From Afipia massiliensis (GTDB taxonomy: Bacteria > Pseudomonadota > Alphaproteobacteria > Rhizobiales > Xanthobacteraceae), in assembly GCF_001006325.2 (NCBI RefSeq), contig NZ_LBIA02000001.1:3225501-3289500 (forward strand): DNA of 64,000 nt. Direction: 5' to 3'. Under the pieces are notes generated by a model. That model did no database searches and was not told the origin of the DNA. It saw only the letters and a list, made by a program, of their open reading frames with translations. Shown here one piece after another: positions 30,057-33,656 of this stretch (position 1 is its first letter; each line of letters opens with the position of its first letter). A program made the translations under genes and the position numbers.

Positions 30057-30113
30057 TGGCTGTTTGAAATTTGAATCGGGAGACGTGAAGCGCGATCACG
30101 CAACACTTCAGAT

Positions 30114-30239
30114 GTCGTCCCCGCGCAGGCGGGGACCCATAACCACCGAACATTATGATGACGAAGGAAAGAGTTGCCCCGCTATCGCGGTAACATGATG
30201 GCTTTGGGAGTATGGGTCCCCGCCTTCGCGGGGACGACG
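30114..30239. repeat. Palindromic repeat, family B, copy 3
   Basis: GTCGTCCCCGCGCAGGCGGG + GACCCATAACCACCGAAC and TATGGGTCCCCGCCTTCGCG + GGGACGAC form the outer arms, with a GCCCCGCTATCGCGGTAAC insert. It is related to the copies at 59568 and 60414. Confidence 0.88.
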
Positions 30240-30243
30240 ACAA

Positions 30244-30270
30244 GAAAAACCCCGCCGAAGCGGGGTTTGC
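30244..30270 (-). terminator. Rho-independent terminator for the small Cys-rich protein gene
   Basis: On the minus strand: AAACCCCGC, TTCG loop, GCGGGGTTTTTC. It lies 18 bases after the stop of the gene at 30288. Confidence 0.85.
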
Positions 30271-30287: not shown

Positions 30288-30545
30288 TCACCACCAGGTA
30301 CGGCAGACGCGGCCAGGACCCCAGTAACGGCACTTGCGCACCACCGGCAGGCGAACCACGACCACGCGGCCACGGTTGACGACACAGCGGCCATACGGGC
30401 CACGATGGAAGCCGCGGCCGCAACCGCCGGCGACCTGGATGACATCGGCGCTGATGCCGGGCGCGGGAGCTGCAGGCATGGCGTTGGCGGCGCTGAAACC
30501 GGCCGCGGAGGCTGCGAGAAGTGCTGCTGCGAACAACGTTTTCAT
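30288..30545 (-). CDS. Small exported GCG-type four-Cys protein
   Basis: The 85-residue protein has a signal peptide (MKTLFAAALLAASAAGFSAA, cleavage near NAM). Its mature part reads QVAGGCGRGFHRGPYGRC, then a basic Val-rich segment and a second Cys pair in RKCRYWGPGRVC. The GCGxGFHRxxxGxC opening is the motif of the GCG_CRPN-type small proteins. The gene at 31722 encodes a relative with the same four-Cys spacing style. ATG 30545 has a GAGGAAAG site upstream. Function unknown; secretion and disulfides are inferred. Confidence 0.8.
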   Translation of the reverse strand: MKTLFAAALLAASAAGFSAANAMPAAPAPGISADVIQVAGGCGRGFHRGPYGRCVVNRGRVVVVRLPVVRKCRYWGPGRVCRTWW

Positions 30546-30834
30546 GGGTGTCTTTCCTCGGATCATCATGTTGCAAATTTATGTTGCGACGGCCCGGCCG
30601 GGGCCGGCCAGGAAGCCGGAATCAGATCGCCGGCATCGGCCGGCGCGGGACATTATTCTTCCGAAGATTGACACAAGATGAACCGATTGTGATCGCCGAC
30701 GCAGGTCAGTGGCCGCATTGGCTGCAGAGGAAAGCAGCTTGGCCACGGAGACGAATCCGGAATCCCGTCGGTTCAGTTTCCATTCATGCGCGCTGCGGAA
30801 TTCTTGATGCGAACAGAACATCGGAGGACGCATC
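30546..30834. promoter_or_regulatory. Divergent intergenic region between a Cys-rich gene and the first Tat-type gene
   Basis: These 289 bases hold no gene and include a GGCCCGGCCGGGGCCGGCC + AGGAAGCCGG palindromic patch (30592-30618) and AT-rich patches on each side. The likely promoters of both flanking genes lie here. A CGGAGGA site precedes ATG 30835. Confidence 0.5.
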
Positions 30835-31188
30835 ATGGATCGCCGCGGTTTTCTCAAGTTCGCGTTTGGTGTCGCCGCCGCCGGTGCGGCAACTGTTACC
30901 GCCGCGCGCGCCGCGCCGCTTGCGCCGCAAGTGCTCACCGACAAACCGCTCGAGCCGGATCAACTTCCGCAGAACGCCGTCGCCAACGACGACGATCTGA
31001 ACGAGGCACAGGTCGAGCAGGTCCGGTGGGGACGCCGCCGCGGCTGGGGCCGTCGTCGCTGGGGATGGCGCCGCCGCCGCTACTGGGGCTTTCGCCGCCG
31101 AAGGTACTGGCGCCGCCGCAGGTACTGGGGATGGCGTCGCCGCCGCCGCTACTATCGTCGTCGGTATTGGCGTCGCCGTTACTGGTGA
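30835..31188 (+). CDS. Twin-arginine-signal protein with an Arg/Trp/Tyr-rich polycationic tail
   Basis: The 117-residue protein starts MDRRGFLKFAFGVAAAGAAT, a twin-arginine-like signal with RRGFLK. After a short acidic linker ending DDDLNEAQVEQVRW, residues about 66-117 consist almost only of Arg, Trp, Tyr and Gly in units like RRRRYW and GWRRRR. The linker is shared with the next gene (DDLAGAELEQVHW), which carries a His/Arg tail instead. Charge and aromaticity suggest binding to nucleic acid, LPS or polysaccharide, or an antimicrobial or metal role. All of these are inferences. Confidence 0.8.
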   Translation: MDRRGFLKFAFGVAAAGAATVTAARAAPLAPQVLTDKPLEPDQLPQNAVANDDDLNEAQVEQVRWGRRRGWGRRRWGWRRRRYWGFRRRRYWRRRRYWGWRRRRRYYRRRYWRRRYW

Positions 31189-31352
31189 TGAGCTACCGCA
31201 TCATTTGTTGAGGGAATGATCGCGCTGTCATTCGTGCGTAGAGAGGCAACGGGTCGCATGCAGGAAACGGAACAATTTGGTTTCACACCGCGTTCGTTGA
31301 TCTTGCGGGACAGTCGTGCCGTGAAACGTTCGCTTCACAAGGAGAAGAATTG

Positions 31353-31649
31353 ATGGAACGTCGTGATTTTCTGAAGTTTGCGTTCGGCTTCGCCGCCGGC
31401 GCAGGTGCAATTGTCGCCGCGGCATCAGCGGCGAGTGCTGCGCCGATGCTGTCCCCGCATCATGATTTGATGAACGGCCCGAAGCCGGAGCCTGACGTGA
31501 CGGCCAAGCCCGCGGTTGCGGATCAGGACGATCTTGCGGGTGCCGAACTTGAGCAGGTGCATTGGCGCCATCGCCATCACCGCCGCCATCATCGCCGCTA
31601 TCACCGGCATCACCGCCGCCACTACCGTCGGCATTACCGCCGCTGGTAA
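31353..31649 (+). CDS. Twin-arginine-signal protein with a His/Arg-rich tail
   Basis: The 98-residue protein starts MERRDFLKFAFGFAAGAGAI, a twin-arginine-like signal very close to that of the gene 164 bases upstream. The linker DQDDLAGAELEQVHW matches its neighbour, but the tail from about residue 72 is His/Arg/Tyr-rich (RHRHHRRHHRRYHRHHRRHY). Such a tail could bind Ni, Zn or Cu or polyanions. ATG 31353 is preferred to the adjacent TTG 31350 because of an AAGGAGAAG site upstream. A terminator follows. Confidence 0.8.
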   Translation: MERRDFLKFAFGFAAGAGAIVAAASAASAAPMLSPHHDLMNGPKPEPDVTAKPAVADQDDLAGAELEQVHWRHRHHRRHHRRYHRHHRRHYRRHYRRW

Positions 31650-31666
31650 GCGGCGGCTGAACGAAC

Positions 31667-31700
31667 AAACCCCGGCTGCGATCGAGCCGGGGTTTTGTTT
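31667..31700 (+). terminator. Rho-independent terminator after the second Tat-type gene
   Basis: Stem AAACCCCGGCT / AGCCGGGGTTT with loop GCGATCG, then TTGTTT. Confidence 0.88.
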
Positions 31701-31721
31701 TACGGGTATAGTTTTTTGTGC

Positions 31722-31985
31722 TTACTCGCGCCGGCACTTGCCGGCGAGGTTGCGCCGGTATCCGACCTGACATTTGCGGGCGAACAGCCGCATCAGTCTC
31801 GGTCCTTCCGGCTGCGGGCGGCAGACTCCGCTTGAGAGGCGATGAAATCCGACGCCGCATCCGTCCTTCACCGCCACCACATCGCCGCGCGCGGCGGCGG
31901 CCAGCGAGGCGATCGGCATGGCCTGCGCGGCTCCCGCGCCGAGCATCGCACCTGCGAGGACGACTGCCGCACAAAACGCCTTCAT
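31722..31985 (-). CDS. Small exported GCG-type four-Cys protein, relative of the gene at 30288
   Basis: The 87-residue protein has a signal peptide (MKAFCAAVVLAGAMLGAGAA, cleavage near AQAM). The mature part contains VKDGCGVGFHRLSSGVCRPQ, the GCG_CRPN-type motif, followed by a basic stretch with two more Cys (RKCQVGYRRNLAGKC). It lies just past the convergent Tat-type gene and its terminator, so the two Cys-rich genes bracket the two polycationic genes. It ends in KCRRE. Function unknown. Confidence 0.8.
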   Translation of the reverse strand: MKAFCAAVVLAGAMLGAGAAQAMPIASLAAAARGDVVAVKDGCGVGFHRLSSGVCRPQPEGPRLMRLFARKCQVGYRRNLAGKCRRE

Positions 31986-32003: not shown

Positions 32004-32870
32004 TCAGAGCTTCGGCGCGTTGCCGAGCGGGGTCTTGTTCAGGGCTTCGTTCTTCTCGGCAGCGAAAGCGTCCGCGTCGATCTTCGCCGAGCTGATGATT
32101 TGCTTGAAGTCAATCAGCGTGAACTCAGTCTTGCTGACCCGGTTCGGCGTGATGCCCGGCGAGATCTCGACTGAGACGAGCGCGTCGCAATTGGCAGCCT
32201 TGGCCTCAATGACAAGCTTGTCGAGCGTCTTCTCCAGCGCTTGCGCACGTTTTAGTTCCGCGACGCAGCTACCGCGTCCGTTAGCATCATTGAGCGCGAC
32301 AGCGACCTTCGGATTAATCGGCCCGTTGAGCGCTTCGAGCGCGGTGGCAGGGGTATACTTCTGCTTGACCGACATCAGCTTGCCGCCCTTGTAGAAATAG
32401 TACATGCGGCCGTCGCCGATCGCCGTGGGCGCACCATACTTCGTGGTCACGCGCTCGATCATCTCGGCCTTCGATGGCTGCTTGTCGGCAGAAAAGCCGA
32501 GCAGGCGCGAGATGTAATAGGCGCGGTTGGCGCTCGCGGGCGAGGAGAAAACCGCCAGCATCGATTCACCAGGATGGGTGCTGGTCGGGGCGAGGGTAAA
32601 CTTCATCGCGGTGACATAAGTCACGTTGGTGCCGCCGAACTTCTGCTGCGCGGTTTCCGGCTTCACGCCCGGCAGATCTTTCAGGTAGGCCTCGAAGATC
32701 GGCGCGGCCTTGCTGCCTTCGATGTTGCTCGACAGGCCGACAATGTCAGGCTGCAGCTTCGCGGAAAATGCTGTTTCGGGTGACTTGGGCCTGATTTCGT
32801 AAGCCCAGCCGGTGGCCGGAGCCGTGACCGAAAAAAGCGCGACAAATGCGACTAACCCACTGCGAAACAT
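32004..32870 (-). CDS. Exported protein of unknown function
   Basis: The 288-residue protein has a signal peptide (MFRSGLVAFVALFSVTAPAT, cleavage near GWA-Y). The body is mixed alpha/beta with TKYGAPTAIGDGRMYYFYKG, which resembles periplasmic proteins that read out a short substrate, but no known domain is recognised. There are two Cys in the C-terminal half (GRGSCVAEL and AANCDAL). Its 3' end lies 18 bases before the small Cys-rich gene on the same strand, so the two may be co-transcribed. Confidence 0.75.
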   Translation of the reverse strand: MFRSGLVAFVALFSVTAPATGWAYEIRPKSPETAFSAKLQPDIVGLSSNIEGSKAAPIFEAYLKDLPGVKPETAQQKFGGTNVTYVTAMKFTLAPTSTHPGESMLAVFSSPASANRAYYISRLLGFSADKQPSKAEMIERVTTKYGAPTAIGDGRMYYFYKGGKLMSVKQKYTPATALEALNGPINPKVAVALNDANGRGSCVAELKRAQALEKTLDKLVIEAKAANCDALVSVEISPGITPNRVSKTEFTLIDFKQIISSAKIDADAFAAEKNEALNKTPLGNAPKL

Positions 32871-32966: not shown

Positions 32967-33656
32967 TTAATCGCCCGGCGCGCCGAACAATGCGTTAAAG
33001 CGCGCGGTACCTTTCGGCGAAAACGTCACGACGCGGCTGCCTTTTTCGCGCTTGGCCCAGTTCAACTCGTAGAATCGCGACAAGATCGCCGCGCCGAGCG
33101 ATCCCGCGAGATGGCTGCGCCGCACACTCCAGTCGAGACAGGTCTTGCACAGCGGACGGCGCGATCCGCCGAGGGCCGGCAGGTCGATGCCGAAATCAGC
33201 GACGAACCGCTCACCCTGGGGCGTGAGCGCGACGTTGTCCTTCTGCGTGCGCAGGAGCTTCTTCTCCGTCATGGAATCGAGCATCCGGACGCCCAGATCG
33301 CCGGCAAGGTGATCGTAGCAGACGCGGGCGCGCCGCAGCCCGGGGTCGGCAGGTCCGGTGCGGACACGCAGGTGGCCGGCGCGGGCGGCGAGCCCCATCA
33401 GTCCTTCCAGCACAGCGGCTACGTCCGGCCCGGAGAGCCGGAAATAGCGGTGGCGGCCCTGCTTCTCGGGGACGACGAGATGTCCGGCCTCAAGCTTGGC
33501 GAGATGCGAACTCGTGGTCTGCGGAGTGATACCGGCTTCCTGCGCGAGTTCGGTTGCGGTGAGGGCGCGTCCGCTCATCAGTGCGGTCAGCATGTTGGAG
33601 CGCGCGGGATCGCCGACTAGCGAGGCGATCATGGCCATGTCCGGTCCGGCTTTCAT
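32967..33656 (-). CDS. ArsR-type winged-helix transcriptional regulator
   Basis: The 229-residue protein has an ArsR helix-turn-helix at 10-85 ([40 protein letters not shown], then [11 protein letters not shown]). The C-terminal half includes a Cys pair ([20 protein letters not shown]), common in the larger ArsR relatives. It is divergent from the NIPSNAP gene, with 71 bases between starts, so that gene is a likely target. The ligand is unknown. Confidence 0.85.

Follow-up and report, generated by a model that had tools for sequence, protein, structure and literature searches.

A putative FeuP-box locus joining Tat-signal polycations and Cys-rich GCG proteins in Afipia massiliensis and related genera

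In the stretch of Afipia massiliensis DNA analysed here (64 kb, hereafter the window), two genes for secreted four-Cys proteins of the GCG type bracket two genes for polycationic proteins with Tat signals (Table 1), and all four open reading frames lie where a first-pass annotation had put them. The opening motif GCG-x-G-F-H-R-x3-G-x-C and the second Cys pair which it ascribed to both GCG proteins are likewise present in both. It had also regarded the co-location of these two types of small protein as unexpected by chance, which is borne out: the whole 4.5-Mb genome holds two GCG genes and two Tat-polycation genes, and all four are found at this locus, so that their co-location is far above chance. 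Each pair (GCG-A/GCG-B and TatR/TatH) may have arisen by local duplication. The strands of the four genes (-,+,+,-) mean that the locus is not one operon or single transcription unit. The genes were considered real because dN/dS values of 0.06-0.30 in ten pairwise comparisons indicate purifying selection. For GCG-A, a start at 30545 is likelier than the one tabulated, orthologues favouring the former. The gene preceding GCG-B, whose product had no family match, possibly forms an operon with it. Just 3' of GCG-A, at 30110-30250, lie GC-rich stretches with inverted repeats (GTCCCCGC...GCGGGGAC) that resemble a dispersed repeat element.

Table 1. Features of the locus (positions counted within the window)
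Feature	Position	Strand	Basis or remark
GCG-A, secreted 4-Cys protein of GCG_CRPN type	30288..30569	-	NF047412, 44.1 bits; alignments
TTCA-N7-TTCA direct repeat (FeuP-type box) 5' of TatR	30772..30786	+	Intergenic, between TatR and divergent GCG-A
TatR: Tat signal, anionic linker, Arg/Trp/Tyr core	30835..31188	+	TIGR01409, 21.3 bits; protein family
EcfG-like promoter GGAAC-N17-CGTT 5' of TatH	31269..31294	+	Match to the EcfG consensus
Imperfect box TTCA-N7-TTCG 5' of TatH, overlapping the EcfG-like site	31282..31296	+	One mismatch
TatH: TatR paralogue, His/Arg core	31353..31649	+	TIGR01409, 16.3 bits
Terminator-like hairpin between convergent TatH and GCG-B	31667..31695	+	Two in the region, against a mean of 1.6 in shuffles
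GCG-B, secreted 4-Cys protein of GCG_CRPN type	31722..31985	-	NF047412, 39 bits
Conserved 288-aa protein, 18 bp upstream of GCG-B, same strand	32004..32870	-	No family match; no exact box upstream

TatR exceeds the cut-off of the TAT-signal model TIGR01409 (16.7 bits) and TatH falls 0.4 bits under it; apart from this signal, no Pfam or NCBIfam model scored over its cut-off on the polycation family. A literature search for small arginine-rich Tat proteins (match on four of five terms) found no paper, and structure prediction for the Tat protein was uninformative (mean pLDDT 56). Composition was counted on 104 Tat proteins from the seven genera with a block-type gene, the divergent matches of eight other genera being excluded. 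A junction E-x-V/I-x-W/Y was found in 96 of them, preceded by a linker whose median net charge is -4.5. The core sequences after the junction in these 96 proteins (3590 residues) contain 1592 Arg, 585 His and 994 Trp/Tyr/Phe, with 2 Asp/Glu and 0 Lys; the C-terminal residue is Trp in 82. As nine proteins encoded around the locus contain 187 Lys against 237 Arg, Lys is avoided in the Tat core. From this composition, the Tat polycation is predicted to be exported and probably binds anionic envelope polymers.

Two other functions may be read into the same architecture. The Arg/Trp-rich core, which we liken to Arg/Trp antimicrobial peptides, could together with the anionic linker and the conserved junction be that of an antimicrobial released against competitors, with the linker as its propeptide and GCG as an accessory. 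Unlike a variable weapon, however, the gene is found at one place in nearly every genome of genus g49, and no immunity gene, protease or exporter was recognised among the neighbours of Tat genes, so that this function appears quite improbable. A precursor of a modified peptide (RiPP), with the conserved part as leader, would agree with the conserved leader and junction, the repetitive variable core and the frequent terminal Trp; in our view the Tat proteins resemble GrrA, of the GRRM glycine-rich-repeat RiPPs, in combining a leader with a repetitive basic/aromatic core. Nevertheless, the radical-SAM maturase family of that system (TIGR04261) has no match in the A. massiliensis genome, which sets the locus apart from GRRM systems, and is over cut-off in only 1 of 41 genomes; no modifying enzyme was found among the neighbours scanned, and we give the RiPP explanation very little credence. 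A GRRM-type radical-SAM enzyme (427 bits, G002:C13:34860-35933) occurs in one genome of the same genus and is absent from the others searched.

Both GCG proteins of the window exceed the curated cut-off (24 bits) of NCBIfam NF047412 and are thus members of GCG_CRPN, a family whose description states no function and mentions no box in common with Tat polycations; literature searches with GCG_CRPN and NF047412 as names found no paper. All four Cys are invariant in an alignment of 19 GCG sequences, and a structure model of low confidence (mean pLDDT 56) shows two small hairpins. In a tree of 104 proteins of about 85 aa, the GCG proteins of the locus fall into at least four lineages; the proteins being short and the backbone weak, the tree serves only to show that they are not one orthologous pair.

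The distribution of both families was surveyed in 341 genomes from 47 genera of the bacterial family, using for Tat a profile of 25 proteins. The Tat profile matched 111 genomes (15 genera) and the GCG profile 216 genomes (31 genera). The first-pass annotation had proposed co-occurrence as a check, and a GCG gene was indeed found within 3 kb of the Tat gene in 81 of the 111 Tat genomes (19/27 in the genus of A. massiliensis, g1; 53/55 in g49; 8/9 in g50; 1/1 in g67; 0/19 in eleven others), linkage counts that are lower bounds since a few of the 111 loci, all of which were read, lie near a contig end. No GCG gene lies within 3 kb of Tat in the other 30, eight of them in g1, and the profile search gave no GCG match anywhere in five g1 Tat genomes (G007, G012, G015, G020 and G021). 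An obligate Tat-GCG pair is thus not supported, given these 30 genomes and the occurrence of GCG in 31 genera vs 15 for Tat. The locus is best described as having the Tat polycation as its constant member and GCG proteins as frequent, replaceable neighbours.

The same genes flank the locus in g1, g49, g50 and g67, where it is therefore a single inherited block, and adjacency alone is consequently no proof of function. Adjacency is partly the result of one inherited syntenic block, though one occupied by different GCG lineages in different orientations: the GCG gene is either divergent on the 5' side of Tat or located 3' of it, where it may be convergent or on the same strand. In some g49 and g67 genomes (loci L131, L140, L165, L181 and L186-L189), the GCG gene follows Tat by 57-102 bp on the same strand, and these are candidate two-gene operons with a GCG lineage of their own.

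Of the 123 Tat genes, 99 are preceded by a direct repeat, TTCA-N7-TTCA, whose distance to the start is mostly 60-85 bp; ten rounds of shuffling yielded 0-2 each. On the opposite strand it occurs in 1/123 Tat upstreams, and of the spacer lengths from 0 to 25 only 7 is enriched, the others occurring in at most 6. Conservation resides in the half-sites, since the 99 boxes contain 56 different spacer sequences. The box is found at Tat genes of all seven block-type genera, and in 0/14 cases in the eight genera with divergent Tat-like matches. It also precedes 60 of the 93 GCG genes of the locus (shuffles 0-1), namely 49/56 in g49, 8/8 in g50, 1/2 in g67 and 2/27 in g1; in g1, the spacer with the Tat box is also that of divergent GCG-A, and an antisense box was found in 13/27. 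Altogether, the 111 loci contain 179 boxes, of which 20 lie neither before Tat nor before GCG genes. Dispersed GCG genes (12 recognised in 23 loci examined) had the box in 0/12 cases. This presence of the box at Tat genes and at GCG genes of the locus, and not at dispersed GCG genes, is new here. In the window, the exact box of TatR is the only exact copy in 64 kb, TatH has the box with one mismatch, and no box was found upstream of GCG-B or of the gene at 32004-32870. Other genera (L143-L149, L191-L195 and L198) also encode exported proteins rich in His/Arg whose leader and acidic linker are similar, with neither box, synteny nor GCG neighbour.

Outside g1, 56 of the 62 genomes with Tat and GCG have the box at both genes (g49 47/53, g50 8/8, g67 1/1), compared with just 1 of 19 inside it; as the genomes are related, box and linkage counts are not independent events. 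As to coordinated expression, which the first-pass annotation proposed to check, the evidence is one of common DNA sites, weaker within g1 than outside it. Independent scattering of the two families, which that annotation held would leave no system, is refuted for four genera by the linkage and by the same box before both genes. Shared ancestry only, in which an old syntenic block was inherited and Tat and GCG have no common function, agrees with the common flanking genes and with the 8/27 Tat genomes of g1 that lack a GCG gene within 3 kb, but not with GCG genes of the locus that differ in lineage, side and strand, nor with a box that both genes share and dispersed GCG genes do not; we consider it rather unlikely.

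The box corresponds to the candidate FeuP binding site TTCA-N7-TTCA of a promoter study in Sinorhizobium meliloti (PMC3616915). Among the eight OmpR-type regulators of the A. massiliensis genome, one (G000:C1:4337883-4338557) has an exact box just upstream, and no exact box was found in the loci examined for the other seven. Of the eight, this regulator also matches the annotated FeuP of S. meliloti best (74% identity over 219 aa, against 42% for the next), and the kinase beside it is 37% identical to FeuQ. A close match to this FeuP orthologue was found in 32/32 genomes probed, with the box within 200 bp upstream in 26 of the 29 readable loci (a 30th had no recognised start). At the sequence level, the locus thus agrees with the S. 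meliloti FeuP/FeuQ regulon in having the same box, in the same orientation, on the sense strand 5' of its genes, and an orthologous regulator with a boxed promoter of its own; in S. meliloti itself, the box lies 68 bp upstream of the feuN start. The named target there is ndvA. FeuN had no match in the loci examined here, and TatR had none in a plasmid collection in which the pSymB record of S. meliloti, with feuNPQ, is present. Compared with PhoP/PhoQ of enteric bacteria, the catalytic part of the kinase is closest to PhoQ and the regulator to PmrA and PhoP, with scores far under the NCBIfam cut-offs (PhoP 209.5 of 336, PhoQ 137.9 of 497). The first-pass observation is real and beyond chance, its interpretation is partly supported, and the locus is best named a FeuP-box locus.

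A scan of the A. massiliensis genome found 36 TTCAK-N6-TTCAK sites vs 6 for the reversed pattern; 33 were inspected and 15 lie inside genes as defined by a crude gene caller, so that the excess, which may be codon bias, was not used as evidence of a regulon. With a longer pattern, 14 genomes yielded 8 sites, distributed over 6 of them and too few to define one. Two sites of A. massiliensis are recorded for themselves: a FeuP-type box (L235, G000:C1, 3152878-3152893) 82 bp before a 90-aa secreted protein with a His/Arg-rich stretch, and a box with Tat-like flanks (L200, G000:C1, 572749-572764) 149 bp 5' of the gene for a 320-aa protein, by appearance a YpfJ-type metallopeptidase.

Other regulators were weighed against FeuP. 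The motifs published for ChvI (GCC-N8-GCC and TTGC-N3-GCAA; PMC9731502) do not fit the box, and the EcfF motif (PMC3420878) differs from it. The CenKR envelope regulon of Rhodobacter sphaeroides also has a direct repeat with an 11-bp period, and TGA-N8-TGA reversed sits inside TTCA-N7-TTCA; however, CenR sites run mostly with the gene as TGA-N8-TGA (PMC9275681), whereas those of the locus run as TCA-N8-TCA. CenR was rejected on this opposite orientation, the antisense box occurring in 1/123 Tat upstreams; a CenR-type repeat in opposite orientation, or the overlapping EcfG-like site, is a possible alternative to FeuP. As a candidate for binding the box, the HTH protein encoded at 32967-33656 was dismissed, since Tat genes retain the box where no match to this protein was found (L066).

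GGAAC-N16-18-CGTT, which we take to be the EcfG promoter consensus, occurs exactly in 22/123 Tat upstreams, that of TatH included (shuffles 0-1), as it would if the Tat protein acted mainly in the EcfG general stress response. Such a role seems highly improbable, the motif being found in only 2/57 Tat upstreams in g49, 0/9 in g50 and 1/93 GCG upstreams, with its CGTT part overlapping the TTCA box. On account of this overlap, general stress control may be added to that by FeuP at some Tat genes, including TatH.

We judge it moderately likely that the locus serves FeuP/FeuQ as an envelope-stress output, its exported polycation binding anionic envelope polymers. FeuP is, from the sequence comparisons, the most likely regulator of the Tat gene, and of the GCG gene in most genera, although its binding to the box and the inducing signal are candidates, as is the FeuP site even in S. 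meliloti. Among PMC12486126, PMC5539429, PMC10592609 and PMC7769827, S. meliloti FeuPQ is described as controlling cyclic-glucan export and as responding to a cationic host peptide. FeuQ would sense periplasmic cationic peptides or a change of osmolarity, and FeuP would then bind TTCA-N7-TTCA and activate the Tat polycation gene, together with the neighbouring GCG gene in most genera. The polycation would be exported through the Tat pathway, with the anionic linker neutralising its Lys-free Arg/aromatic core up to the point of export; once outside, the core would bind polymers such as LPS core, peptidoglycan and glucans, bridging or buffering charge. The Cys-rich GCG protein would act in the same compartment, where the two proteins may be in contact. 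A bolder and unlikely variant is that polycation and GCG are a bacterial equivalent of those cationic Cys-rich peptides of plants by which FeuPQ is switched on, serving as periplasmic FeuQ ligand or feedback signal and as outer-membrane charge bridge, FeuPQ thus regulating its own ligands.

The FeuP-box locus joins a secreted GCG family known by name only, and a polycation family without a model over cut-off beyond the Tat signal, to FeuPQ, a regulator of known biology. If FeuP control holds, the FeuP regulon would come to include the Afipia-like genus together with related genera, and these nameless proteins would gain a first testable role, in envelope homeostasis or symbiosis.
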